42,325 nt of DNA from an uncultured Candidatus Melainabacteria bacterium (lineage in GTDB: Bacteria > Cyanobacteriota > Vampirovibrionia > Gastranaerophilales > Gastranaerophilaceae), in assembly GCA_949741915.1 (NCBI GenBank), contig CATJOM010000083.1:1-42325 (forward strand). The letters run 5' to 3'. The position numbers and the translations under genes were made by a program. Positions within the stretch are counted from its first letter, which is position 1; each line of letters starts with the position of its first letter. This document shows, piece by piece, positions 6,508 through 38,279 of this stretch. The notes beneath the pieces were generated by a model. The model had not been told where the DNA came from. It saw only the letters and a list, made by a program, of their open reading frames with translations, and did no database searches.

Positions 6508-6911
6508 GGGGATGATTATGGATTTGACAGGGTGTTTATGTCATCTAAGCTGCGGGTTCGGGCGCTGTTCCCGGTTACCAACGAGCAAATAAAATAAACG
6601 CTAAATTTGAAAACAATATCGTAGCTCCTGCATTCGGCCGCAAGGCTGTAATGGCTGCCTAGGATATTTCTAGCTACTCTATAGTTTAACTTGCGGGCTA
6701 TAGGGTCCCTAAGCAAGTACAGCGCGTGAAGAGAAAGCATAGCGCGTGAAGTTTTGCAATAAAAGTTGTCTGTCTTTTAAAAAATAGTCTCAGATCGGAT
6801 TTTTGGTTGTGATTACTCACCTAAACCGGTTGAAACCAAGTAGAATCTACACCCGTAGATGTTTATTTGGCGTCATTTTGGACGCGGGTTCGACTCCCGC
6901 CATCTCCACCA
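6508..6911 (+). ncRNA. ssrA: Transfer-messenger RNA (tmRNA)
   Basis: tmRNA rescues stalled ribosomes and tags the nascent chain for proteolysis. The tRNA-like ends are clear: 5' GGGGATG pairs with 3' CATCTCC followed by A and an encoded CCA, the 5' D-like region reads ATGGATTTGACAGGG, and the T arm is GGGTTCGACTCCC. The tag frame begins with the resume codon GCA at 6585 and ends with TAG at 6660-6662. It encodes 25 residues starting ANKINAKFENN and finishing GRKAVMAA, with the expected Ala-Ala terminus for ClpXP-type proteases. The tag resembles cyanobacterial tags. Its 3' end is the left border of the accessory region, a common place for integration of mobile DNA. Confidence 0.97.
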
Positions 6912-7232
6912 TTTAAATATATAAACATGTCATTGACCTGTTTTTCATGCCTGCTTTATACGTTATTTGCGGGCTTTAGCTATAGGTTTTCAGGACAGTT
7001 GTGATGGGAGTTTTGTGGTAAATATGCCTATATTTAGGGCGATAGAGGCAGATTTATAGTGTAGAGATTTGCCGGACTATTTTTGCACTTTTGTCACAAA
7101 TTTTGCACTATTTTGCACTAATATTCTGTCATGCTGATCTTGTTTCAGGGTCTATTTAGCATGGAATTTAGCATTGAGCCAAGTGCAAATAAGTGCAATA
7201 AAGTGCAAAAATAAATTATCTTGCATTTTGAT
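6912..7232 (+). promoter_or_regulatory. Leader of Mu-like element with phased TTTTGCACT repeats
   Basis: This 321-base gap holds no gene. A possible promoter, TTGACC (6933-6938) with TTATAC 17 bases on, lies just after ssrA. The clear feature is two clusters of a ten-base word: TTTTGCACTT at 7081, TTGTCACAAA (degenerate) at 7091, TTTTGCACTA at 7101 and 7111; then, inverted, AAGTGCAAAT at 7181, AAGTGCAATA at 7191 and AAGTGCAAAA at 7201. Members in each cluster start exactly ten bases apart, one helical turn, so bound protein would sit on one face of the helix. They may be transposase end-binding sites, or operators controlling the transposase gene that starts about 22 bases later. Confidence 0.6.
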
Positions 7233-9065
7233 ATGTGTCTAAATGTCTCTGAGATTGAGATTCAGGACTTGATGTTTCTGCGAAACAGAGTGATTAATGT
7301 GTATGCAAAGGAGCATACGCATATGGCAGAATTTACTCCAGAAAAATGTAAACAAATAGCACTCGCAAGATTAGACATTGTTCACAAATGGCTTGAGTTC
7401 AGAAAGAAATCTCAAAATAAACTTCAAGCCGATTATGATTTTGTAAAATTACATAATACTTCAAATTCTCACTTATTTGAGATTTTAGGTAAGATATCTC
7501 GCGGCAGTTTGCACCGTTGGTATGCGATGCTAAATGAAACAGAAGATTATACAAAACTCTTGCCACAATATAAGTACAGTAGTGTTAATGATTACAGAAC
7601 TGTATTAAATAATGAAGAAATAAAAATATTTATGGGGTTGCTTTTGCATCCCAATAGACTTTCAATCGGAAAAGCAATTGCTTTAACAAAGTACAAATTA
7701 AAAGAACAAGGTCAAAATTTTATTCCGGCTGATATTACATTCAGGCGTTATGCCAAGTGGTTCAAAGATAATAATTACGATAAATGGATTCTTGCTCGTG
7801 ACGGAGAAAAAGCACTGTCAGATATAGTCGAACCTTATATAAAACGTGATGCAAGTTTGCTTGAAGTCGGGGATATTCTTGTAGCAGACGGACATAAATT
7901 GGCCTTTCAAGTAATAAATCCATTTACAGGAAAACCCTGCAGAGCAACATTAGTCGGATTTTTGGATTGGAAATCAGCTGCGTTAGTTGGTTATGAAATT
8001 ATGCTTGAAGAAAATACGCAGTGTATCGCAAGTGCACTCCATAATGCGATAATAAATCTTGATATGGTTCCCAAAATTGTATATCAGGATAACGGCAGAG
8101 CATTCAGAGCTAAATATTTTACGGATGACAAAGGCTTTACTGAATTAGGTTTTCAGGGATTATATTCAAAACTCGGAATTGAAACAGTATTTGCTCGACC
8201 GTATAACGCTAGAGCAAAAGTTATTGAAAGATTCTTTAAAGAATTTCAAGAAGGGTTTGAAAAGTTACTCCCAAGTTATATCGGAAGCAGCATTCAGAAT
8301 AAACCCGCCTATATGATGCGGAACGAAAAATTGCACAAAAGTTTGCACAATGAATATATTCCTACCATTGAAGAAACAATAAAAATGATTGATATGTGGT
8401 TGAGTTTTAAGAATTCACAGCCTTGCCCGAATGCACCGGATAAAACAATAGCTGAAATTTTATCCAGAAGAAAAAGACAAAACATTGATATTAATACACT
8501 TGATGATTTAATGCTAGCTACGGAAGTAAAAACAATTCAAAGAAACGGCATAAGGTTCTTAAATTGTGACTATTTTGATGAAAGATTGTACGGATTCAAG
8601 AGCAAAGTATTAATAAAATATAATCTTTTTGACCTTACAAGCATTAAAGTTTACACCCAAAAAGGCGAATATCTTTGCACTGCAGAACGAGTAACAGAAA
8701 CTCATCCAATGGCAAAACTTTTAGGTGATGTTAAAGATTTTGAAGATTACAAACAAAAAATTGTCCGTCAGCGCCAATTAAAAAAGAAAACTTTTGAATC
8801 TGTTAAAAAATATTTGAAAACAGAAGATATAAAATTACTTGAAACCCAAATGGAACCTGCTGAAATTCAAATGCCGTTCAAATCGGATTCAAAAAGGGTT
8901 CAAACGCTGTTCAAAAATAATTCAGAAAAATATGAATATTTGATTGCGAATGAACCAAATAATTCTTGGATAACAGAATTTAAGCAAACAAAGGAGTATC
9001 GATTATTGTATGAACAAGATTTTTGTAAAAACGCAAAACGTCAAAAACTTTATCGGACTTGTTGA
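7233..9065 (+). CDS. Mu-type DDE transposase (MuA/TnsB-like)
   Basis: A protein of 610 residues from the ATG at 7233 (a TTG at 7221 would add four). It has an N-terminal DNA-binding part, an RNase H-fold integrase core and a C-terminal Mu-type region. The catalytic triad is readable: D219 in ILVADGHKLAF, D286 in VYQDNGRAF and E332 in KVIERFFKEF, with the YNARAK segment just before the glutamate. It would cut and join the element ends. The C-terminus is basic with many lysines and a long helical part, where Mu-family proteins contact the ATPase partner. It overlaps the ATPase gene by 56 bases, indicating coupled expression. No frameshift is seen, so it may still be active. No good ribosome binding site precedes either start. 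Confidence 0.88.
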   Translation: MCLNVSEIEIQDLMFLRNRVINVYAKEHTHMAEFTPEKCKQIALARLDIVHKWLEFRKKSQNKLQADYDFVKLHNTSNSHLFEILGKISRGSLHRWYAMLNETEDYTKLLPQYKYSSVNDYRTVLNNEEIKIFMGLLLHPNRLSIGKAIALTKYKLKEQGQNFIPADITFRRYAKWFKDNNYDKWILARDGEKALSDIVEPYIKRDASLLEVGDILVADGHKLAFQVINPFTGKPCRATLVGFLDWKSAALVGYEIMLEENTQCIASALHNAIINLDMVPKIVYQDNGRAFRAKYFTDDKGFTELGFQGLYSKLGIETVFARPYNARAKVIERFFKEFQEGFEKLLPSYIGSSIQNKPAYMMRNEKLHKSLHNEYIPTIEETIKMIDMWLSFKNSQPCPNAPDKTIAEILSRRKRQNIDINTLDDLMLATEVKTIQRNGIRFLNCDYFDERLYGFKSKVLIKYNLFDLTSIKVYTQKGEYLCTAERVTETHPMAKLLGDVKDFEDYKQKIVRQRQLKKKTFESVKKYLKTEDIKLLETQMEPAEIQMPFKSDSKRVQTLFKNNSEKYEYLIANEPNNSWITEFKQTKEYRLLYEQDFCKNAKRQKLYRTC

Positions 9066-9690
9066 AAATCTGATAAGCAAACCGAAGAATATTCCGAAAA
9101 TGGGACTTGTTTATGGCGAACCCGGCTTAGGAAAATCGCAGACAGCTTTGTGGCTTGCTTGTAAATATGACGGAATTTATCTGAGAGCATCAAACCTTAT
9201 GACTGGTAGGTGGCTGCTTGAAGAAATTGTTAAAGAGCTTGACGAGATACCGAGATTTTTGACTTCGGATAACTTTAATATTGTGGTTAAAAAGCTGAAA
9301 CAAAATCCGCAGGACATTTTTATTGATGAGATTGATTACCTAATGAATAACTATAAAACGATTGAAACTCTGCGGGATATTCACGATGAAACTGGCTGCC
9401 CGATAATTTTTATCGGAATGGGCTTGGCACACAGGAAACTTGAACGATACAAACACCTTTATGACAGGTTTTCAGAGATCCTAAAATTTGAAACTTTTGG
9501 AGTAAATGATTTAAGCCAAATTATTAATCAGTTGTCAGAAGTTACATTTACTCCTGATGCTATTGAATATATCCATTCAAAATACAACAGGTTCAGACAA
9601 ATTGTTCAGCTGATAAACCAAATGGAAACTTTTTCACAAGACAATAACTTAACGGAAATTACAAAAGAAATTATGGAGCAAATATTATGA
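9010..9690 (+). CDS. AAA+ transposition ATPase (MuB/TniB-like)
   Basis: A 226-residue AAA+ ATPase with Walker A GEPGLGKSQT (about 36-45), Walker B DIFIDEIDYL (about 100-109) and a sensor-1-like strand IIFIGMG. The small size and position directly behind a MuA-type transposase identify it as the target-selection/activator ATPase of the element, as MuB or TnsC/TniB are for theirs. The C-terminal part (FGVNDLSQIINQLSEVTFTPDA...) is the helical lid. The start overlaps the transposase end in another frame. It could also resemble ExeA-type ATPases, but the context argues for transposition. Confidence 0.85.
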   Translation: MNKIFVKTQNVKNFIGLVENLISKPKNIPKMGLVYGEPGLGKSQTALWLACKYDGIYLRASNLMTGRWLLEEIVKELDEIPRFLTSDNFNIVVKKLKQNPQDIFIDEIDYLMNNYKTIETLRDIHDETGCPIIFIGMGLAHRKLERYKHLYDRFSEILKFETFGVNDLSQIINQLSEVTFTPDAIEYIHSKYNRFRQIVQLINQMETFSQDNNLTEITKEIMEQIL

Positions 9691-23865: not shown

Positions 23866-24321
23866 GTGGTAATAATAAAATTTCTACAACAAAATGCTGA
23901 ATGGATGTGTGCTATAGCAATTGTATTTTTCACTGCAGTGCAATGCTGGTTGGTACATCAGCAAAATATGCAAAATATTAAAATCAAAAGATTAGAATTG
24001 GCTAATAAGTTAGATAGTGTATGTTCTAAATTCTTGGGAGAAAAAAGCGAAGCTACAGAAATTTTAATATGGTTAAATGAAAACGCCAGTAATTTTGTTT
24101 TTCTTTTGAGAAAAGAGGATAGAGTTGCATATAAAAAGTTGCTTTTATTTTTAATGAACTATAGAAACAATCCTGCAGAATATTCTTCACCTCAAAAAGT
24201 AGAAGCAATTCAAAATCTGTTTAATCTTCTAAGTGAACTGGATTCTGCTTTCGGTAATGCAAATTATGGATTTGTTAACGATAAAAGCGAATTACAAAAA
24301 TCAGATAACAACGTACTATGA
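23866..24321 (+). CDS. Single-pass membrane protein, RM-associated (copy 2)
   Basis: A 151-residue paralogue of the protein at 16341, with GTG start and GAGG six bases upstream. It keeps FLQQNAEWMCAIAIV, FTAVQCWLVHQQNMQN and the final (S/L)SELDSA-GNANYGFV, while the middle has diverged. DNA identity in the first 100 bases is also high, so the copies share recent ancestry. It stands alone after the RM terminator and its last bases overlap the end of the convergent serine recombinase gene. The two copies bracket hsdS, the TIGR04141 gene, hsdR and the metallopeptidase. Confidence 0.75.
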   Translation: MVIIKFLQQNAEWMCAIAIVFFTAVQCWLVHQQNMQNIKIKRLELANKLDSVCSKFLGEKSEATEILIWLNENASNFVFLLRKEDRVAYKKLLLFLMNYRNNPAEYSSPQKVEAIQNLFNLLSELDSAFGNANYGFVNDKSELQKSDNNVL

Positions 24322-25899
24322 AACCAACTCCTCTGCCATCTTAATCAATTTCTTCACATTCAACTCCGGGTCTTGAGTTCCGTTTATTATGCTTTCAATA
24401 ATTTCAGGCGGTAAAAATCTTAGTTTGCGAAGTCGTTTGTTATTTCCGTTTCGAGCTTCGATTGGAAGACGACGTTCTGATCCGAGTTTGTTATACCAAA
24501 AGCTTTTTACGATAGCCTGAATTAATTTCATATCATAGTTTTTCTGCCCTTGAATAATTATTTTATTTTGTTTCTGAGGCGTCAAGGATATTTTTGCATT
24601 TATGCGATTGGTTATAATTTGTTCATCATCTTTTGTGTGGTTGAATTCGATATTACAAGCCATTGCAGCAAAGTATTTTACAATAAACGCTATATCATAG
24701 CTTATAGTTATAAATTCCGGATTTAAATCCACTCTTTTAATTGCCGTTCTTATAAATATTTTATCTTGAAGTTCAAAAGTTTGAAGCTCTTTTATTATAG
24801 ATTTTTGTTGACTTACAGGGTAATTTTCTAAATATTTTTGAATTTGATGAGTATCTTTAAGAAGCTTCAATAAATCATTTTGGACGAATTTTTCAATTTC
24901 TCCTGCTGCGATTTTTGTAATTTCACCACGCTCATATTTTCCGGAATCTTTTATAGCTTGGCTTATATAGTACCTGTATTGTTTTGTTTTGCCGCTTGAA
25001 TAACTAGGTGACATCTTGTTTCCTTTGTCATCAAAAATTAATCCGAAAAGCAATGTTCCTGTTTTTGAATTTGTGGTGTGTTTTCTTTCAATAGAATTTG
25101 CTTTTAGCAAATTTTGTACATCATCAAATAACTCTTGCGAAATAATTGGTGTATGGAGTCCTTCATATTCCTTATCTTTATGGACAATTTTTCCTAAATA
25201 AACCTTATTTGCAAGAATATGATACAAACTGCCTTTTGCTAATTTTTTACCGCTGCGAGATAAAATATTCTTTTCATGCAAATATTCTCTAAGCTTTAGC
25301 ACATTCTTTGTTTTTAAGTATGATTCAAATATGATTTGAACATTGCCATCATAAGGAGGTTCAGGGTGCAGCATATGATGATCATCTTTTAAATATCCAT
25401 AAGGGGCAGTTCCTGATAACCACAATCCCTTTTTGCGCGAAGCTTCAAGCTTATCCCTAATTCTCTCTCCTGTAACTTCTCTTTCAAATTGGGCAAATGA
25501 TAAAAGTATATTAAGCGTCAATCGCCCCATAGAAGTTGTTGTGTTAAAATGCTGGGTTATAGAGACAAATGAAGCATTATGTTTATCAAAAACATCAATA
25601 ATCTTTGAAAAGTCCATCAGTGAACGGGTTAATCGGTCAACCTTGTAAACAACCACAATATCAACTTCATCATTTTCAATATCACTTAATAGTTCTTTAA
25701 ATGCAGGTCTTTCCATTGTCCCGCCGGAATACCCTCCATCATCATAATGTTTTTCAACTAATACCCATCCTTCGTGCATTTGGGACCTTATATATGCTTC
25801 GCAAGCTTCTCTTTGAGCATCAAGTGAATTGAAATCCTGCTCCAGTCCTTCTTCGGTAGACTTTCTTGTGTAAATTGCGCATCCTATATATTTTTTCAT
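24316..25899 (-). CDS. Large serine recombinase
   Basis: A 527-residue site-specific recombinase. The catalytic domain (1-150) has the nucleophile S14 in IYTRKS, the arginine-rich VYKVDRLTRSLMDF and the LSFAQFEREVTGERI helix; the recombinase domain follows (SGTAPYGYL, GSLYHILANKVYLGKIVH). The zinc-ribbon position (about 285-330) lacks the usual cysteines. The C-terminal DNA-binding part ends in LRKLRFLPPEIIESIINGTQDPEL, the form common to recombinases paired with DUF2924. It would integrate and excise the surrounding element. Its end overlaps the end of the convergent membrane gene, so an attachment site, if any, should be near 24300. Confidence 0.93.
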   Translation of the reverse strand: MKKYIGCAIYTRKSTEEGLEQDFNSLDAQREACEAYIRSQMHEGWVLVEKHYDDGGYSGGTMERPAFKELLSDIENDEVDIVVVYKVDRLTRSLMDFSKIIDVFDKHNASFVSITQHFNTTTSMGRLTLNILLSFAQFEREVTGERIRDKLEASRKKGLWLSGTAPYGYLKDDHHMLHPEPPYDGNVQIIFESYLKTKNVLKLREYLHEKNILSRSGKKLAKGSLYHILANKVYLGKIVHKDKEYEGLHTPIISQELFDDVQNLLKANSIERKHTTNSKTGTLLFGLIFDDKGNKMSPSYSSGKTKQYRYYISQAIKDSGKYERGEITKIAAGEIEKFVQNDLLKLLKDTHQIQKYLENYPVSQQKSIIKELQTFELQDKIFIRTAIKRVDLNPEFITISYDIAFIVKYFAAMACNIEFNHTKDDEQIITNRINAKISLTPQKQNKIIIQGQKNYDMKLIQAIVKSFWYNKLGSERRLPIEARNGNNKRLRKLRFLPPEIIESIINGTQDPELNVKKLIKMAEELVS

Positions 25900-27370: not shown

Positions 27371-28657
27371 TTATTGTCCTCCTTTATTTTCATCTAAAGT
27401 GCTTACTAATTGCACTTTTTCTCCGGTTAGTTTTTCAAAACGGTGAAGTATTACATCGCAATAATGAGGCTCAAGTTCAATTGCATAACAAGCCCTGTTT
27501 ACATTTTCACAAGCCAAAAGGGTAGAACCTGAACCCGCAAAGCAGTCAAGTACAACATCATCCGGATTGCTTGCATCCAAAATAGCCTCTTCCAACATTT
27601 TTACAGGTTTACAAGTTGGATGAAATTTTAAATCATCTTTATTTTCAGGATTTGAAACATGAACTCCTTTAAAGTCCCATACATTAGTTCTATAACGACC
27701 AAATTTACCGAGTTGTATATTGTTAACAGATTTCCCTGTACCATTTTTAAACACAAATACTAATTCATGCTGACTTCTGTAAAAAGAACCTTGCCCGCCA
27801 ACCATTTTGTTCCAGACGCACAAATTTTTAAATTCGGAATAACATTTGCCTGCGGTTAAAATTTCCAACACATGTCTCCAGTCCATAAATATGTAGTGCA
27901 AAGAGCCATCTATTGTATATTGCACCAGATTATTAAAAATAGCACCAAGAAACCCGATAAATTCCTCAGATGACATCTCTCCGCTTGCCATTGCAAATTC
28001 GCTATGTTGAATTTTTCCGCTGCCGCATATATCTTTAACAGCAAGATTATACGGGGGATCAGTCAGGACCATTGCGGCTTTGGTATCTTTGAGTAATAAC
28101 CCGTAATTTTGAATATCTAAAGCATTACCGCATAACAAACGGTGTCTTCCGAGCTGCCAAATATCTCCTGTATTTACGCGTTTTTCAATATTAAGTTCAT
28201 CCGGCATTGTTTCTATGGATTCATTTTTACTATTTTTCTTAGAATCTTGAATTATAAAGTCAATTTCAGGAATTTCAAAAGCTGTAAAACTTAAATCAAA
28301 ATTCAATTCCTGCAATTCTTTAAATTCAAATTTTAAGACATCAATATCCCACTTAGCATCTTCTGTCATCTTGTTATCAGCTATAGCATAGGCTCTTAGT
28401 TGTTCTGCTGTAAGATGAGAAGCATCGATTGCAGGAACTTTTTCAAGCCCCAATTCTTTAGCTGCAAGATATCTTGCGTATCCGGTTATGATTTTTTGCT
28501 CCTTGTCGATTACAATGGGGATAAAAATACCATTTTCTTTGATAATCCTTGCAAGTTTTCCGATTTTCTCGGGCTTGTGTTTTCGCAATTTCCTTTCGGG
28601 TTCTTTAAGTTTTTCTAGCTCAACCCTTAAAATAAGAGGGTTATAAATTTTATCCAT
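27371..28657 (-). CDS. ParB-domain/DNA methyltransferase fusion
   Basis: A 428-residue fusion. The N-terminal 1-130 resembles a ParB/Srx-type domain: LRKHKPEKIGKLARIIKENG, then ITGYARYLAAKELGLEKVPAI. From about 165 an amino-DNA-methyltransferase follows with TDPPYNLAV (motif IV) early and DCFAGSGSTLLACE (motif I) late, the circularly permuted beta-class order. It probably methylates adenine or cytosine in the element's DNA to resist restriction. With DUF5681 it forms a two-gene unit common in prophage-like islands. The 5' end has a weak ribosome site. Confidence 0.93.
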   Translation of the reverse strand: MDKIYNPLILRVELEKLKEPERKLRKHKPEKIGKLARIIKENGIFIPIVIDKEQKIITGYARYLAAKELGLEKVPAIDASHLTAEQLRAYAIADNKMTEDAKWDIDVLKFEFKELQELNFDLSFTAFEIPEIDFIIQDSKKNSKNESIETMPDELNIEKRVNTGDIWQLGRHRLLCGNALDIQNYGLLLKDTKAAMVLTDPPYNLAVKDICGSGKIQHSEFAMASGEMSSEEFIGFLGAIFNNLVQYTIDGSLHYIFMDWRHVLEILTAGKCYSEFKNLCVWNKMVGGQGSFYRSQHELVFVFKNGTGKSVNNIQLGKFGRYRTNVWDFKGVHVSNPENKDDLKFHPTCKPVKMLEEAILDASNPDDVVLDCFAGSGSTLLACENVNRACYAIELEPHYCDVILHRFEKLTGEKVQLVSTLDENKGGQ

Positions 28658-29601: not shown

Positions 29602-30143
29602 ATGAAAATTAAATTTATAGAACTAAACAATTTTAAATCTTTTAAAGGTAAAACCACAATCCCTTTTAAATCCGGTTTAACGATAATTACGGGTTTAAAT
29701 GGAGCAGGAAAAAGCAATATAATCGATGGGATTATTTTACTTTAGGAAAATATGAAACAGAAGCCAGATATTTGATATATGAGGGTGAAAAAGAAGCAGC
29801 GGTCAGGGTTGTTTTAGAAGATGAAAATGAAAATTTATTATCAATTTCAAGGACAGTTGATATTAATAACAGCAAATCATTAAAAATAAATGGCAAAATG
29901 GCAAATGATAAAGATATTCCGTGCAATGATTTTAATTTTATGCTTTTGGATTCATATTCCCACAATCAACTTGATGCCTATAGATTAAAAGATTTTATTG
30001 CAAAGTTAAAAGAAGAATCAAACAAAAAACAGGTTATTTTGGTGAGTACCGAAAATGATTTAGCTAATTATGCTAATCAGGTTATTATGGTAAATCAAAA
30101 AACCGAAAATCAATCTGAAATCAAAGAAATGCAGTCTATATAA
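29602..30143 (+). pseudogene. Hinge-less SMC-like head protein, frameshifted
   Basis: The first 47 codons (29602-29745) are an SMC N-terminal head: MKIKFIELNNFKSFKGKTTI, Walker A GLNGAGKSN (31-39) and IIDGI, then a TAG stop. The sequence continues in another frame from about 29737: LGKYETEARYLIYEGEKEAAV, RTVDINN and SLKING, like an SMC N-lobe. It then jumps, with no coiled coil or hinge, to a C-lobe-like FMLLDSYSHNQLDAYRLKDFI and VILVSTENDLANYANQVIMV. The Walker B DE and an LSGG signature are missing. One extra T at TTTT (29736-29740) would restore one frame. GGAG precedes the ATG. It is a broken gene or one expressed by frameshifting. It heads a closely spaced operon. Confidence 0.75.
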
Positions 30144-30155
30144 ATGGAGTAAAAT

Positions 30156-31241
30156 ATGACAGAAAGAATTGAAAAATTACTTAAGGATGTTAAGGAAATT
30201 TCAAATAAATACAAAACAATTGCACAAGCTACGGGTAGTAATTTTAATATTTTTGAAATTGTAAACATTTCACATAAAGAAGTTTATATGTGCAGACTTT
30301 TAAGCGAGCTGTTAAACCCAAAAGGAAGTCACTATCAGGGTAATATTTATTTAAAATTATTTTTTGAAACCCTAAAAAGAAATTATGGCGACAAATTCAA
30401 CCTTAAAACACCTGAAAATGCAGAAGTCTTAAGGGAAGAAGGAATTGAAGGATGCAGGCGCATTGATATAACAATTGATGATGGTAAACAATATCTGCCT
30501 ATTGAAGTTAAAATTTATGCACAGGATCAAAAAGAGCAATGCAAGGATTATCTTAAAAAAGCAAAAGATAAATACAACCAAGGGGAAAACGCAAGATTGT
30601 GCTATTTAACAATAGAAGGACACTTGCCGGATGAATCAAGCCTTGGTGATATGTCAGAAGCCGAAAAAGAGCAGATTATAGAAATATCTTGGAGAAAAGA
30701 TATTATAGAATGGCTTGATACTTGCATTAAACATCAAAATACGGTTGCAAAGGCGCCAATTAGAGAAATATTAATACAGTTTAAAAAAGCAGTACAGAAA
30801 TTTACAAACCAATTGGAGGAAAATGAAAAAATGGAAAATGTAAAATTATTAATTAACAATCAGGAAAATTTTAAAAATGCCGAAAAAATTGTTAGCGCAT
30901 TAACATCTGCAAGAGAAACTCTCTGGAACAAATTATGCGATTTTATTAAAGTGGAAATTCAAAATGGTTGTAATGTTGAAGCAATAATCCCAAATGATTG
31001 GAATGTACACTACAAGCTTCCTTTTGAAGAAAATAACGACTTCTATACAGTTGCCTGCATAAATGCAAATCAAACAAAAAGTGAAATCAGTTTACTCATT
31101 GTAAAAGCCTATAATAACGGTAAAACTGAAACAACACAAACATGTGAAAAATTTTCAACCTCTAAACTTGCAGGCGAAGAAAACTTCAACAAAAAAGCCA
31201 AAGAATGCGTTGATTGGATAATTGAACAACTTAAAAAATAG
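30156..31241 (+). CDS. PD-(D/E)XK nuclease family protein (PDDEXK_4-like)
   Basis: A 361-residue probable nuclease. The N-terminal HKEVYMCRLLSELLNPKGSH, then D104 in RRIDITIDDG and E117/K119 in LPIEVKI, with Q124 and Q128 and the LKKA helix after, make the PD-(D/E)XK core as in the PDDEXK_4 family. The C-terminal third (about 230-361) is beta-rich with IKVEIQNGC and LLIVKAYNNG. GGAG lies eight bases upstream and the gap to the SMC-like gene is 12 bases. All catalytic residues are visible. Its place between SMC head and SMC hinge genes suggests cooperation. Confidence 0.85.
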   Translation: MTERIEKLLKDVKEISNKYKTIAQATGSNFNIFEIVNISHKEVYMCRLLSELLNPKGSHYQGNIYLKLFFETLKRNYGDKFNLKTPENAEVLREEGIEGCRRIDITIDDGKQYLPIEVKIYAQDQKEQCKDYLKKAKDKYNQGENARLCYLTIEGHLPDESSLGDMSEAEKEQIIEISWRKDIIEWLDTCIKHQNTVAKAPIREILIQFKKAVQKFTNQLEENEKMENVKLLINNQENFKNAEKIVSALTSARETLWNKLCDFIKVEIQNGCNVEAIIPNDWNVHYKLPFEENNDFYTVACINANQTKSEISLLIVKAYNNGKTETTQTCEKFSTSKLAGEENFNKKAKECVDWIIEQLKK

Positions 31242-31256
31242 CAGGAAAAGAGCTGT

Positions 31257-31745
31257 ATGAAAGAAACAATTGAAAAAATCAAAGAAGAAAATATAAAAGG
31301 GATTTACGGCACCTTAAAAGAATTGTTTAAAGGTAAAGAAAAAGCTTTAATATTGGCTGCACTTGGAACAAAACAAGAATTTATAGTTGCCGAAAATGAA
31401 GAAGCAGTCTACCGTGCAATAGAAGTTGCTAAAAAAGAAGGCAGAGGCAGGGTAACTTTCATTCCCTTAAATAATATAAAAACTGCGCCCGGGAAGCTTT
31501 TAAAACCCGAAATTGGTGGAATTTTAGATTATGCCATTAATATAATTGAATTTGATGAAAAATACAAAGATGCCTTTTATTTTGCACTCGGCGAAACTTT
31601 GATTGTGCAAGATAATGAAGCTGCAAAAAACATCATTAATAAATATCCGAATCAATATCGTATGGCAACATTAGACGGCATAATACACGAAAAAGACGGA
31701 AGAATTATCCATTGTCCGATAATAAAGGAAGCAGAAAATGCCTAA
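31257..31745 (+). CDS. Free-standing SMC hinge domain protein
   Basis: A 162-residue protein that aligns over nearly its full length with the hinge of SMC proteins: IKGIYGTLKELF, then LAALGTKQEFIVAENEEAVYRAIEVAKKE, GRVTFIPLNNI, ILDYAINIIEFDEKYKDAFYFALGETLIVQD and YRMATLDGIIHEKDG. No head, coiled coil or Walker motif is present. The gene begins 15 bases after the nuclease with GGAAAAGAG upstream and overlaps the WG-repeat gene by 8 bases, so it is maintained as a separate reading frame. Hinges mediate SMC dimerisation and DNA contact; this one could dimerise with itself or with the host SMC (inference). Confidence 0.85.
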   Translation: MKETIEKIKEENIKGIYGTLKELFKGKEKALILAALGTKQEFIVAENEEAVYRAIEVAKKEGRGRVTFIPLNNIKTAPGKLLKPEIGGILDYAINIIEFDEKYKDAFYFALGETLIVQDNEAAKNIINKYPNQYRMATLDGIIHEKDGRIIHCPIIKEAENA

Positions 31746-33372
31746 AACAACAAAAAACACTTTAAAAGAATGGGGGAAATGGAAACATCTTAAAGAAATC
31801 ACCATGGCTTGGGCTTTAGAGTTGATTAATAAAAAGAGTGAAAAAGAAATAGGTACTATTATCAATCTTTCAAAGGCTGAAATTAAAGCTATGGTTGATA
31901 ATTTTAATATTAAAGAACATGAAACCTTGGTTTGTCAAATTCAAGGCGGTGTAAAATTAACAGAGCGGGAAGAAGAATTTCTTACCCTTATAAAACAGGG
32001 TAAAAATATTTCAGAAATCTCTAAAACCCTTATAGTAAACAGGGCGAGGGTTAAAACCGTTGCTAAAATTATCATCGCAAAAATTTTAATAGGGCTGTAT
32101 GATTATTATAATTCCAAATATTCTTACGTATCAGAGCTTTCGCACCCTGTTTTAGAAAATATGCGCTATTATGGCTTTATATATGGCAAGGCAGCAGGTG
32201 AAATCGGGGATTATTGGTATGAGTTTGACGAAAAGGGCAAGGTTCATTTAAAAATTAAATGTGACACCTTTGAAAGGACTAATGAAAACCGCATTATTAT
32301 TTCAATTGATAAAAAATACGGCCTTATTGATAATTGCGGTAATTATTTAATTCCCCCAAAATATGAAAAATTTGAAGAAACATTTGGCGAAAACAGCCCA
32401 TATTTTACAGCAAAATTGAATGACAAATACGGGGTGATTAATAAAATCGGAAAAACCGTTATTGATTTTAAATATGATGGAATGCGGCTTTTTGGGGATA
32501 AAGAACACATTTGTGCAAAAACCGGCGATAAATGGGGCTTGATTGATATAAATGGAAATATCATAATCCCGTTTATTTATGATGAAAGTTTCAACAACTA
32601 TAACTTGCCATTTGGAGAAAATGATGGTTTTATTGCAGAAAAAGAGGGTAAATACGGGGTTATTAACCTGCAAAATGAAAGTATTGTTCCGCTTGAATAC
32701 GATTTCATATGCTCAAGCTTTTTCGACATTACAAAAAGTATGACCATAGCAGAAAAAGACGGCAAAAGGGGTGTTATTAACGTTCAAAACGAAACTCTTA
32801 TTCCTTTTGAATATAAATATATTGAAATTTTTTCCGATAAAACAATGTTTGTGCATAATTTTAGCGAGGGATATATAATTGATTTTTCAAATAAAAAAGT
32901 TTGCGAAAGGGAATTTCAATTTATAAGCAACAGTAAAAAAGGTGGCAAATATTTTTGTGCCATGGTAGGTGATAAAGATGGCGTAATTGATAAATACGGC
33001 AATATCAAAATTGATTTTAAATATGATGATTTATTCTTTTTGAATCAAAATTTGCTTGTTGCAAATAAAAATTCAAAGGAAGGGATTATTGATATTGATG
33101 AAAACATTATAGTTCCTTTTAAATATTGGTTTGACCGTGACGGAGACTTGGGCAAAGATGGTTCAATCACTGCCAGAAAACGGGTCAATGGTAAATTAAA
33201 ATGGGGATTAATTAACCTTCAGAATGAAGTTTTAATTGATTTTAAATTTGATATCCTGATGCATTTTTGGGACAGAGAATATACCCTGGGGGTAGCTGAT
33301 AATAAATGGATGTATGTGAATAAAAAAGGTGAAATTCTAAAAATAGATATCGAAAACTATGACACAAAATGA
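31738..33372 (+). CDS. WG-repeat protein with N-terminal HTH-like region
   Basis: A 544-residue protein. Residues about 65-115 (LTEREEEFLTLIKQGKNISEISKTLIVNRARVKTVAKI) look like a LuxR/sigma-type helix-turn-helix. From about 185 to the end there are about nine WG-type repeats, each close to (K)YGLIDxxGNxxIPxxYD: for example KKYGLIDNCGNYLIPPKYE, DKYGVINKIGKTVIDFKYD and DKWGLIDINGNIIIPFIYD. These form beta strands around a barrel or solenoid used for binding. The start overlaps the hinge gene. In this operon it may be a sensor or adaptor. Confidence 0.85.
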   Translation: MPKTTKNTLKEWGKWKHLKEITMAWALELINKKSEKEIGTIINLSKAEIKAMVDNFNIKEHETLVCQIQGGVKLTEREEEFLTLIKQGKNISEISKTLIVNRARVKTVAKIIIAKILIGLYDYYNSKYSYVSELSHPVLENMRYYGFIYGKAAGEIGDYWYEFDEKGKVHLKIKCDTFERTNENRIIISIDKKYGLIDNCGNYLIPPKYEKFEETFGENSPYFTAKLNDKYGVINKIGKTVIDFKYDGMRLFGDKEHICAKTGDKWGLIDINGNIIIPFIYDESFNNYNLPFGENDGFIAEKEGKYGVINLQNESIVPLEYDFICSSFFDITKSMTIAEKDGKRGVINVQNETLIPFEYKYIEIFSDKTMFVHNFSEGYIIDFSNKKVCEREFQFISNSKKGGKYFCAMVGDKDGVIDKYGNIKIDFKYDDLFFLNQNLLVANKNSKEGIIDIDENIIVPFKYWFDRDGDLGKDGSITARKRVNGKLKWGLINLQNEVLIDFKFDILMHFWDREYTLGVADNKWMYVNKKGEILKIDIENYDTK

Positions 33373-33397: not shown

Positions 33398-34369
33398 ATG
33401 TCCAGATTAAACAAAGCAGAACAAATAATAGAACTTGCAATGATGTTTCAAAACAGCTATTCAGGTCTTTGTATTGATGATATTCAAGAACATTTTGAAT
33501 GTTCAAGAAGATCTGCAGAAAGAATGAAATCGCTGCTCTTTAGTTTGTTCCCGGAAAAAATGGAAGTTGTAGCGACAGGGGATAAAAAGAAACGCTGGAG
33601 ATTTATTAAGGGAACAATGAATTCTTTAATAACCTTTACCAGTGATGATTTTGCAAATCTTGAATACTTAAAAGGACTGTCAAATGATGAAAACAGACAA
33701 AAAGAACTTGATGAACTTATTGCAAAAATAAAAGCTTTAACCCCGCAGAAAAATGCTATGGCGCTTGAAACAGATATTGAGGCCATTTTAGAATCAGAGG
33801 GGTTTGCAGTTAGGCAGTATTCAAGGGTTAAAGCCGATAAAGACGTTTTAGATAAACTTCGCCAAGCTATGCTTTCGTTTAAAAAAGTTGAGTTTGACTA
33901 CAATACAGATAAAGGACTCCGCCATATAACCCTAAACCCCTATGGCATAATTATTTCAGATAAATATTATCTTGTAGGATTTAATGATTATGTAAACGAT
34001 TTAAGGCTCTACAAGGTGGATAAACTTCAAAATCTTATCGTGACGAATGATTATTTTGAAAAAGACGAAAAATTTTCGCTGTCCGAATATTACAAAAACT
34101 CTTTTTCAATCTATCAAGAAGAACCTTTAAATATAACGCTTGAATTTAACAAAGATGTAGCGGAAGATGTTTTAAATTACCACTTTCACCCGACACAGAA
34201 GATGAAAACCCTTGAAAATGGAAATATTCAGGTAAAATTCACCTCCGGTGGCAAACTTGCAATCTGCCATGAGCTTTTCAAATGGGGAACCTTCGTTAAA
34301 ATCAAAAGACCGGCTGAATTGAAAGAATATTATAAGGATTATTTGATAAACATTTTCAATAAGTTTTAA
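33398..34369 (+). CDS. WYL-domain transcriptional regulator
   Basis: A 323-residue regulator. An N-terminal winged helix-turn-helix (AEQIIELAMMFQNS, CIDDIQEHFECSRRSAERMKSLL) is followed by a WYL domain (about 160-235, with VEFDYNTDKGLRHITLNPYGIIISDKYYLVGFN, the YYL replacing WYL) and a C-terminal WCX region (LNITLEFNKDVAEDVLNYHFHP...). WYL regulators of the BrxR/CapW kind often control defence operons. It lies 25 bases after the WG gene and 39 bases before the VPA1262-like gene, so it may control the latter while being cotranscribed with the former. Confidence 0.9.
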   Translation: MSRLNKAEQIIELAMMFQNSYSGLCIDDIQEHFECSRRSAERMKSLLFSLFPEKMEVVATGDKKKRWRFIKGTMNSLITFTSDDFANLEYLKGLSNDENRQKELDELIAKIKALTPQKNAMALETDIEAILESEGFAVRQYSRVKADKDVLDKLRQAMLSFKKVEFDYNTDKGLRHITLNPYGIIISDKYYLVGFNDYVNDLRLYKVDKLQNLIVTNDYFEKDEKFSLSEYYKNSFSIYQEEPLNITLEFNKDVAEDVLNYHFHPTQKMKTLENGNIQVKFTSGGKLAICHELFKWGTFVKIKRPAELKEYYKDYLINIFNKF

Positions 34370-34408: not shown

Positions 34409-35938
34409 ATGAGTTTTTTAACAAATTCAAATATGTTGTTGGAAGATTATCATTATGCTGCATTAAACATATTGTGGCTATATGATAATGGAAAAAGAAC
34501 ATTAATTTTTGCATTTATTGAGTTATTTCCTAACGAATACCCTAAACCCATAAACATTCAAGAAAATAGCCACAGTATAAAGAAAACAAAACAACGTTTA
34601 TTTTTTGCAAGGGTTATAGATACGGCTGAAAACATTTTAAATTGGTATAGTAATATTTTGTTAGGCAATATTCCTCATATGTTTTGGCAAAATAATGAGC
34701 CTTTTGAATTAATTAATTATGAACAAGAACCAATTTATCCAAATTTTTTATTATCAGATAATCTTCCTTTTTTGCAAGATTTCGTTGGTTGTGTAAGGTG
34801 CCATTTTTTATTCGAAAAAAATTTTCCAGAAGAAATAAGACAATTATGTCTGGATGAAGAAAACGTTAAATGGATTAATGATAAATTTAAATTTAATCTA
34901 TCACTATACTATGAATACCTTGGAGCAATATGTATGGTTGCATATAATCCATTGTTAAGAAGAGTTAGCGCAAAACTTACTACAAACACAAATACCAAGT
35001 CTGAATCTGTGGCGTTTGAAATTGAACCAAGATGTAATATGGATATTTCGGATTTAAAATTGTTATATATAGAAAAACGAAATCTTGGATATAAATGCTT
35101 TAAAGAAATTTCGCTAAATAATTTGTATTTTATAGTAGACAACACAGGAGAAGTGGAAAGTATTGGTTATGCTGTAACTTGCCCCAAAAGAGGATTATTA
35201 CTATGGGAAGGTTTCCATGGTTTTATGAAAAGCTTATCTTTAAATATGAATATTGTAACTGGCACAAATAAGATTAATGTCCCAACCAAAAATTATGATG
35301 GCATTGAAGAAACATATGAAACTTCAAGACACAGTAGCGAAACAATTACAATTGGAGAAAACAATAAAACAAAAACAGAAACGTTATCAATAAAATTGTT
35401 AAAATCAAAAAGAACAAGGGAGCAAAAAAATGTAGCTCAAAATACTCAAAAATTATTTTATGAAAATCCAAAGGAAGCAACTCTATTTATTAGGGGTATA
35501 ATTGCCAAAGCTCAAACAAGAATTACCATAATTGATCCCTATATTACAGCAAGAGAATTATTTAAATTTGTTCTATCAGTAAATCCGACTGTGAAAACAA
35601 CAATAGTAACATCTTCTTTAGTTTTAAAAGGTGGTAAAAATAAAAATCAAGCACAAATATTATTAACAAATATTGATAACGTATCAAAAAATTATCAAAT
35701 CGAAGCCATGGTTATGCTCGGAAAAGAGCCTGCTTTCCATGATAGATTTATATTTATAGATGACGAAGTTTGGGTTTGCGGAAATTCATTGTCTGATATT
35801 GGTAAAAGAGCAAGCATATTGATTAAATCATCAGCACCAAAAGAAATACAAAATATATATTACAGCATAATAAATGACGAGCAAAAAATAACAACATTAA
35901 AGGAATGGGTGGAAAACCATGAAGCCACAAATAGATAA
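34409..35938 (+). CDS. VPA1262-like protein with PLD-type C-terminus
   Basis: A 509-residue protein. The N-terminal part is a mixed domain of unknown fold that I tentatively relate to VPA1262-family proteins. The C-terminal part has a phospholipase D/nuclease-like half: ITIIDPYITARELFKFVLSV, then KEPAFHDRFIFIDDEVWVCGNSLSDIGKRASILIKS, with H-D-R-F replacing HxK. Such PLD-like domains are found in DNA nucleases and restriction enzymes such as BfiI. It lacks a second HKD in the same chain; pairing with the next gene, which has HDRF too, could make the active site. A TATATAAT is 20 bases upstream. Confidence 0.7.
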   Translation: MSFLTNSNMLLEDYHYAALNILWLYDNGKRTLIFAFIELFPNEYPKPINIQENSHSIKKTKQRLFFARVIDTAENILNWYSNILLGNIPHMFWQNNEPFELINYEQEPIYPNFLLSDNLPFLQDFVGCVRCHFLFEKNFPEEIRQLCLDEENVKWINDKFKFNLSLYYEYLGAICMVAYNPLLRRVSAKLTTNTNTKSESVAFEIEPRCNMDISDLKLLYIEKRNLGYKCFKEISLNNLYFIVDNTGEVESIGYAVTCPKRGLLLWEGFHGFMKSLSLNMNIVTGTNKINVPTKNYDGIEETYETSRHSSETITIGENNKTKTETLSIKLLKSKRTREQKNVAQNTQKLFYENPKEATLFIRGIIAKAQTRITIIDPYITARELFKFVLSVNPTVKTTIVTSSLVLKGGKNKNQAQILLTNIDNVSKNYQIEAMVMLGKEPAFHDRFIFIDDEVWVCGNSLSDIGKRASILIKSSAPKEIQNIYYSIINDEQKITTLKEWVENHEATNR

Positions 35939-36495
35939 TTTTATCCAAATACCCATCCCTGAAAAAATAGCAAAAAAAAGAACCAAAATTATATTTCCTA
36001 TCTGCAAATTATGAATCAGGAAAACGCAAATCAAATGATATTGAATTTGTTGATAGTGGCTGTTTCGATATAAGCGATTTATGTAGTAGTATTTTTTGGA
36101 ATAGTTTTGAAAAAGCTGAATATATAGTCATTATTGATAAATTTTTTATAGATGAAGATCTGGATAAAGTTATAAAAATTATGCAAAAAAATAAAAATAA
36201 AATACCAACATTTAAGATGTTCAAACTTTATACAGAAAATGTTGTTGTTATTAAAAAATTCCTTAATGAAATTAAGCGCATTTTAGCTGATAAATTTGTA
36301 GTATTTGAAATAAAACATAAATACATCCATGATAGATTTGCAATATTGGATGATGAATTATTTCATTTTGGATGCACTGTTGGTGGAAAAACCAGCGAAG
36401 GTTTTAGTGCATTTAGTTGCGGATGGAATGCTGATAAAATATCTATGCTTATAAAACATATCGAAACTTCTAAATATTCTGTGAGGATTTTATGA
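35919..36495 (+). pseudogene. Second PLD-like gene split by frameshift at an A8 run
   Basis: The start at 35919 overlaps the end of the previous gene and reads MKPQIDNFIQIPIPEKIAKK, then goes out of frame at eight A (35972-35979), reaching TGA at 36012. Removing one A joins it to the open frame YFLSANYESGKRK...FVDSG, continuing to IHDRFAILDDELFHFG and ending at 36495. The HDRF motif matches the upstream protein's C-terminus. In the joined form it is about 190 residues. It is either inactivated or expressed from slippage at the A run, which would restore the frame. The downstream start at 36181 alone gives a 104-residue piece. It overlaps the 36492 gene by four bases. Confidence 0.65.
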
Positions 36496-38279
36496 TAAAA
36501 GAAGAAATGCAAACACCAAATATGAAACATCAATTAAAGATATATCAAAATACCGTAAGTGAGTATTTAGAACTTGATGATGAAATTAAAAATATTTTTA
36601 ATGAGTTTTGCAATTTGGCATTTCAAGAAAAATACTCATATAATGAATTCATTGAAAAATCTAGCAGATATGAATTAAGTGATAACATAAAATGGTATAT
36701 ATTAGGAAACTTTTGTGTTGATAAAATTTTACGAACAGATTATCAATTCATTGAGTTTTTTGAATGGTTTAATAACTACAGTCATCTTAATGTACATCTT
36801 TTTTATAGCAAAATATTGGCTGAAAAACTTAAAAATAAAACGTTATTAAAAAAGTATACTGATAAGCTTAATGACATTATTGACTATACAAATCAAACTT
36901 TTTTGAATTATATAAGAAAAGATGAAAAACCTGCTTTTAAAGAATTTTTAAAAAAGGAAGAAGAAAATCCAGATATTTTAAATATTCTAAATAACAGAAC
37001 ACGTATGCATTATAGATATATGTCAAATGGTATATTATATTTTGCACTAACCCCAATATTAAATTTAGATACTAAAAAAGTAGTAAAAATACTGTCTAAA
37101 ATAAATTGCATTTTTTTATTGGAAGATTTTTTAACCATTAACGCAATTGAATACGACATAGAACTAATCTGCAAGATTTTATCTCTAGCACCAAAAATTA
37201 CAGATAGCAGTGAAAAATGGAACAATAAAGATATTTTATTGCCATTGCTTACAATAACATTAAATAATAATTTATTACATGCACATGAATCATACAAAAA
37301 TACAACTTGGAATATTGATGAAATATTGAAAAAACACATTAAATTATTCATTGAGCAGTTAAAGCAAAGACCTGATTGTAATTTTTTTACCCAAAAATGG
37401 CTGTTACACCTTGTTTCAACTCTTGATTCATGTTCTGAAATTCACCAAAAATTGACACAAATGACAATACAAATGATTGGCTCAGAGATTGTGGAACAGG
37501 ACATAAGTTTTAATAAAAATTTCTTCAAAAATGAACATTTGAGTAATAAAGGCAAAGAATTATTGCTTGCTTTAATTTATACAACCAATTCCATGCATTT
37601 TCCTCAAGAATATTTGAAATTATTTGAAGATTATCTGTTAAATTTATCAAATAAAATATATGTTTCAAGCGATAAGTCTTTTATAAAAACTGAACACTAC
37701 CTATTATCGCAACTATTTGTTGAAATTAACAAACCTTTCGAAAAATGGCAAAAGCTATGGAATAATTTATATATTGAGCGTCAAAAGGCAATGCATTCAA
37801 ATTATGAAGATAATATGCGAAATATATCCCACTCTCAGTATTTAATTTTAACCGGTATAGCTACTATTGAATATTTTATTTCAAAAAAACAAATGAATTA
37901 TGCAACCGCTTTTTTTAAAAAAATATGGGATGCCTTAATGGAGCTTTATTTAACAATGAGTTACTTTTTGCATGAAAATTTTTTACACAATATGATTGCA
38001 AGATATATATTACTTAAAAATCTGGTGGGAATTGATTTTCAGTTAGAAACAAATATGATTAAGGATAATCCTGAACTAATTTCAAATATCATTTTAAATC
38101 TAAAAAATAACAATAGCGATATAACTTTTATTTCTGAAAATGTTTCAATATTGAATAGTTTAAATACCTATATAACTCAATGGAAAGCATCCGATAAAAA
38201 ACATATAAAATTTAAAGAAAGCTATTATTTAGAAATAGAAGATATTTACAACAAATATTGCCTAAAAAGACTTCAATAA
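36492..38279 (+). CDS. Large helical protein, possible defence effector
   Basis: A 595-residue protein of unknown family, predicted almost wholly helical with many hydrophobic and aromatic helices (e.g. IKWYILGNFCVDKIL, ICKILSLAPKITDSS, YLILTGIATIEYFISKKQ). No signal peptide, repeats or catalytic motif is apparent. It may be a HEAT/TPR-like scaffold. Its ATG overlaps the stop of the PLD-like gene (ATGA), showing strict cotranslation, so the three genes (34409, 35919, 36492) are one system. It is the last gene; no clear terminator follows, only the CCTGTTA repeats. Confidence 0.75.
   Translation: MIKEEMQTPNMKHQLKIYQNTVSEYLELDDEIKNIFNEFCNLAFQEKYSYNEFIEKSSRYELSDNIKWYILGNFCVDKILRTDYQFIEFFEWFNNYSHLNVHLFYSKILAEKLKNKTLLKKYTDKLNDIIDYTNQTFLNYIRKDEKPAFKEFLKKEEENPDILNILNNRTRMHYRYMSNGILYFALTPILNLDTKKVVKILSKINCIFLLEDFLTINAIEYDIELICKILSLAPKITDSSEKWNNKDILLPLLTITLNNNLLHAHESYKNTTWNIDEILKKHIKLFIEQLKQRPDCNFFTQKWLLHLVSTLDSCSEIHQKLTQMTIQMIGSEIVEQDISFNKNFFKNEHLSNKGKELLLALIYTTNSMHFPQEYLKLFEDYLLNLSNKIYVSSDKSFIKTEHYLLSQLFVEINKPFEKWQKLWNNLYIERQKAMHSNYEDNMRNISHSQYLILTGIATIEYFISKKQMNYATAFFKKIWDALMELYLTMSYFLHENFLHNMIARYILLKNLVGIDFQLETNMIKDNPELISNIILNLKNNNSDITFISENVSILNSLNTYITQWKASDKKHIKFKESYYLEIEDIYNKYCLKRLQ

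Follow-up and report, generated by a model that had tools for sequence, protein, structure and literature searches.

SMC proteins are usually regarded as indivisible machines, in which the hinge is the domain for dimerisation and docking, and to our knowledge no lone hinge has been described in bacteria. We were likewise unable to find a bacterial lone hinge in the literature searched, in which few subscription papers were covered. The hinge of MukB is a binding hub, with MatP and ParC as partners. Single SMC parts are known as proteins of their own outside bacteria: the Arabidopsis hinge protein DMS3 has no ATPase head and works as a dimeric scaffold in the DDR complex (PMC6718625), and the C. 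elegans protein SMCL-1 is a head without coil or hinge that has been proposed to restrain condensin (PMC5373644). The original prediction for the gene studied here knew of no described system with a lone hinge, a view that DMS3 does not support.

The gene lies in a 42,325-nt stretch of DNA (the window) from an uncultured Candidatus Melainabacteria bacterium. It starts with ATG, has no internal stop and codes for 162 residues that were predicted to match an SMC hinge over their length. This was borne out by the Pfam SMC_hinge profile (PF06470, E 2.6e-20), on which residues 14-126 cover positions 2-115 of 116. The best family match is SMC_prok_A (TIGR02169, chromosome partition protein Smc; E 5.2e-36), with an alignment confined to the hinge part of the model (512-656 of 1165), and the P. 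furiosus SMC hinges 3nwc and 4rsj were matched in the PDB with an E of about 1e-21. Two AlphaFold models had low pLDDT values (44.5 and 46.9); with the better of them, the top 47 Foldseek matches were all SMC or SMCHD1 hinges, a result that is not fully independent of the sequence evidence, as Foldseek is partly sequence-driven.

The hinge domain is flanked by no more than about 14 residues on its N-terminal side and by a short tail. Whereas Smc is a protein of about 1170 aa with head and arms, the lone hinge chain carries neither an ABC ATPase head nor long coiled-coil arms, and therefore cannot be an SMC motor. It resembles DMS3 in being an intact headless SMC hinge gene with a free protein product, for which a scaffold role is likely; DMS3, however, is a plant protein with short coiled-coil arms that forms a dimer, while here the hinge stands alone and its GG motif is lost. 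These glycines, at the C-terminal end of the hinge, are invariant across the aligned SMC rows, and the lone hinge reads IIHC where SMC has ITGG (TGG to IHC). Work on B. subtilis Smc indicates that they matter for dimerisation, and their replacement argues against a normal hinge dimer, as far as the sequence can tell.

The gene has, as predicted, its own ribosome site, the site-like sequence AGGAAAAG 5' of the start, and it overlaps the next gene by 8 nt, between the start of that gene and the hinge stop codon at 31743-31745. The AGGAAG ribosome site of the next gene sits within the hinge gene. A normal full-length SMC (a 1181-aa frame, with a hinge 46% identical in amino acids to the lone hinge) is encoded on another contig of the same genome, so the lone hinge is not the cell's own smc in broken form. 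One could suspect that SMC sequence was misjoined into the contig, since this is a draft assembly of 126 contigs; but the hinge DNA differs from the genome's own smc, the gene has an exact position within an operon with an overlapping start, and its flanks are syntenic with those in a related genome (G312), which makes an artefact extremely improbable.

Is the gene a piece of debris? In a simulation of neutral decay, in which the genome's own SMC hinge was decayed to 48% identity with all divergence loaded on one branch and the share on the SMC side ignored, the open frame survived in 1.4% of the runs (P(no stop) 0.014); the test loses strength if the SMC side holds much of the divergence, since P(no stop) is 0.18 at 75% identity. 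The real gene scores 146 bits against the hinge profile, whereas the simulated scores had a median of 89 bits and did not exceed 121.5 bits, and columns conserved in SMC are preferentially retained in it (Fisher p 0.0003). Together, frame survival, profile score and conserved columns suggest that selection probably acted on the hinge fold through most of the divergence, and we infer that the hinge was selected in its free form. In agreement with the original prediction, the gene is unlikely to be simple neutral debris. It has nevertheless departed from the constraint on SMC: the lone hinge keeps 18 of 27 near-invariant columns (at least 95% conserved in SMC), or 67%, where every true SMC keeps 90% or more, and its end branch is 1.79 long against a median of 0.055. 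Judged by this departure, the loss of the GG motif and the long branch, a hinge freed long ago fits better than a freshly cut one.

We searched for other free hinges in 288 and 80 genomes of the family, in two genera further (46 and 28 genomes) and in 156 genomes of the phylum, in all some 460 different genomes. Among the matches listed, a hinge-only gene was present in the window genome alone, and no orthologue of the hinge was found in these relatives or in the collections of plasmid, phage and viral sequences that we scanned. Close-relative scans of viral contigs and genome contigs with the hinge gave no match, and the alignment-based viral scans gave a single contig, with an SMC reading frame of 1053 residues. 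The plasmid and phage tblastn matches examined also held no lone hinge; several of them were annotated smc genes, and two matches in phage records (H8 and H9) both fell within SMC-length frames. Nor was the same free hinge found beside PDDEXK and WG genes elsewhere, as the prediction had envisaged: it is absent from the corresponding operons of G312 and of a further genome, G106, and from other PDDEXK_4/HTH loci. In the family survey hinge matches were counted per genome, and we followed up the three genomes that had two. The apparent second hinge of G274 was discarded as a chance match to a REC/HD-type protein, and that of G215, at a contig end, was set aside.

The third of these genomes, G112, provides the exception to what would otherwise be a simple rule, that relatives of the hinge always occur as part of full-length SMC genes. 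It holds a headless SMC hinge gene of 380 aa (L070:564-1706), with the hinge at about residues 183-327, arm-like stretches of about 180 and 50 aa on either side, and the GG motif retained, a layout nearer to that of DMS3 than the lone hinge is. The gene is not at a contig end, no SMC head was found on its 4.2-kb contig, and a sigma-70 region 4 gene follows it. In the tree its hinge is sister to G112's own SMC (100/99), from which it differs with a dN/dS of 0.18. The two headless genes look like independent origins, with a common origin not rejected (p-AU 0.107). For the lone hinge itself, the tree tests rejected neither a position next to the SMC of its own genome (p-AU 0.215) nor an origin beyond the SMCs of the family (p-AU 0.165).

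The hinge gene forms part of an operon (Table 1), most of which is syntenic in G312: there the mini SMC head described below, PDDEXK_4, HTH-WG, WYL, PLD and a 594-aa gene follow each other at 43-88% identity without a hinge, and the PDDEXK stop overlaps the HTH-WG start. Relative to G312, about 500 bp with the hinge are inserted cleanly between PDDEXK and HTH-WG in the window. As the whole G312 operon, the closest one, lacks the hinge, the hinge is an added cistron and is dispensable. No complete named PADLOC system was found in the operon, which has only the single-gene candidates PDC-S26 and PDC-S05, and the hinge matches no PADLOC entry. Genes for type I restriction are found further upstream in the window; together with the PDC-S26 membership they make a role in defence plausible.

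Table 1. Features of the operon around the lone hinge gene (window positions).
Position	Strand	Feature	Basis
29602..29745	+	Mini SMC head, N-part, Walker A (GLNGAGKSN), to stop after frameshift	SMC_prok_A 7.1e-16; one-base difference from G312
29736..30143	+	Mini SMC head, rest, in another frame: end of N-head and C-head (Walker B without Glu, D-loop)	Sequence comparison
30156..31241	+	PDDEXK_4 nuclease, PADLOC candidate family PDC-S26	Profile/PADLOC match
31236..31737	+	Added block of about 500 bp with the hinge cistron; syntenic G312 has 17 nt instead	Comparison with L086
31242..31256	+	Intergenic spacer with AGGAAAAG, ribosome-site-like, for the hinge	Sequence
31257..31745	+	Lone SMC hinge gene, 162 aa	PF06470, PDB hinges, intact frame
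31738..33372	+	Fusion of an HTH (weak GerE/sigma-r4-like match) and WG repeats; first 8 nt shared with the end of the hinge gene	
33398..34369	+	WYL-domain regulator; conserved at several mini-head loci	
34409..35938	+	PLD-like protein, PADLOC PDC-S05; 88% identical in G312	PADLOC
36492..38279	+	595-aa protein, family unknown; 82% identical in G312 operon	

The window contains further genes of note. Upstream of the operon, the minus strand encodes a ParB-methylase (27371-28657), which is conserved beside the operon in G312, and a probable large serine recombinase of 527 aa (24316-25899). At window positions 6508-9690, a tmRNA gene precedes genes for a TnsB-like transposase (7221-9065) and a probable ATPase (9010-9690), an arrangement that suggests a transposon-type element beside the tmRNA.

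The original prediction had described the product as having no coiled coil or head. This is correct for the reading frame itself, but an SMC head sequence 1.1 kb upstream (29602-30143) had been missed. We call it a mini SMC head, as its N-head is joined straight to its C-head: Walker A is kept, while the signature, the catalytic Glu, the coil and the hinge are gone. A one-base difference from G312 breaks the window copy into two frames. We rejected the idea that it and the hinge are remains of one broken smc gene, because its intact homologues form a separate mini-head gene. Such genes are intact in 12 relatives (L050, L086, L087, L088, L089, L090, L091, L092, L053, L093, L094 and L095), several of them beside the same PDDEXK_4/HTH genes, giving 13 mini-heads in the order Gastranaerophilales with the window copy included. 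They measure 169-226 aa (176 and 179 aa in G106 and G312), or about 335 aa when fused to the HTH; all keep the Walker B Asp, and none has space for a long coil, hinge and signature. The mini-head would be an SMC-derived, hydrolysis-dead part that is predicted to bind ATP. Between window and G312 its second part has a dN/dS of 0.29, which indicates that the frameshift arose recently or stems from a fault in the assembly. Several mini-heads are near genes for FtsZ/tubulin-like GTPases (L088:5446-6036, L090:4531-5217, L095:964-1929), and the one at L090 adjoins a DNA polymerase III alpha-like gene (763 aa), so that SMC parts have further proteins of a housekeeping type as neighbours.

With SMCL-1 the mini-head shares the joined N- and C-head, the absent coil and hinge, the kept Walker A and the loss of the Walker B Glu and the canonical signature. 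It differs in being bacterial, of about 175 aa, and in an operon with a nuclease and an HTH protein; the two are convergent in class and not homologous. The accessory clusters of Lamassu, Wadjet and MADS (MAD3) likewise combine an SMC-like ATPase (SMC-like or AAA) with a nuclease, and the best PADLOC match of the mini-head is mad3; those ATPases are, however, larger, with full heads or arms, in contrast to the armless, signature-less head found here together with a free hinge.

The presence of head and hinge in one operon, both with SMC_prok_A as best match, raises the question of whether they form a two-part, arm-less SMC-like machine. This is very unlikely: in the stretches read there is no lone hinge near 12 of the 13 mini-heads, no arms connect the parts, and the head lacks signature and catalytic Glu and is frameshifted in the window. 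Alternatively, the hinge could be a fading relic: a mobile element would have carried an SMC paralogue of which this piece is left, its frame open by chance or under selection only until recently, and with no function now. Such a fate would agree with its presence in one genome only, with the frameshift in the adjoining mini-head, and with the lost GG motif and long branch. We consider it unlikely, given frame openness and a profile score well above the neutral simulations, a precise cistron with a ribosome site and coupling to the next gene, and the intact mini-heads of the relatives, which show that head and hinge are not remnants of one broken gene.

SMC pieces attach repeatedly to this HTH: in L087 a mini-head occupies the PDDEXK-HTH slot that the hinge fills in the window, and L053 and L093 have fusions of mini-head and HTH. 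The hinge might therefore be a generic adaptor, which dimerises or scaffolds HTH-WG, PDDEXK or both in the manner of plant DMS3, without any link to the cellular SMC. Besides this recurrence and the DMS3 precedent, the translational coupling of the hinge to HTH-WG is in its favour; set against the missing hinge in the G312 and G106 operons and the lost glycine pair of the canonical dimer, it is possible but rather doubtful.

We propose, with about an even chance of being right, that the lone hinge serves as a free module for binding, docking either on Smc or on an operon partner, and was added as a cistron to an accessory, probably defensive operon. A piece of SMC would have become a gene of its own and joined the mini-head/PDDEXK_4/HTH-WG/WYL operon as an extra cistron. 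Its product would dock on a protein that recognises the SMC hinge, either full-length Smc, from host or invader, to which we infer that it binds, or an operon partner, and would thereby steer or gate the co-encoded nuclease or HTH protein, with the mini-head as a second SMC-derived part that may bind ATP and be dead in hydrolysis. Against this binding-module reading stand the single hinge-only example, the hinge-less G312 operon and the frameshifted neighbouring mini-head, which implies that part of the locus may be decaying. More speculatively, and in our view improbably, some gut bacteria would have an accessory system of dismantled SMC (coil-less, hydrolysis-dead heads and, in part of the genomes, free hinges) that engages host or invader Smc and so controls the PDDEXK nuclease and the HTH-WG protein.

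The mini-head family, with separate SMC parts in one operon, is a more robust novelty than the single hinge, and its 13 members keep the idea testable even if the lone hinge is marginal. SMC head and hinge occur here as separate small genes in one bacterial accessory operon, an echo of DMS3 and SMCL-1. These results suggest that bacteria dismantle SMC and put its parts to new use, probably for defence or another accessory function. Binding of the parts to full-length Smc, if it occurs, would make them naturally occurring bacterial inhibitors, sensors or decoys of SMC, made from SMC itself, and useful tools for perturbing loop extrusion.
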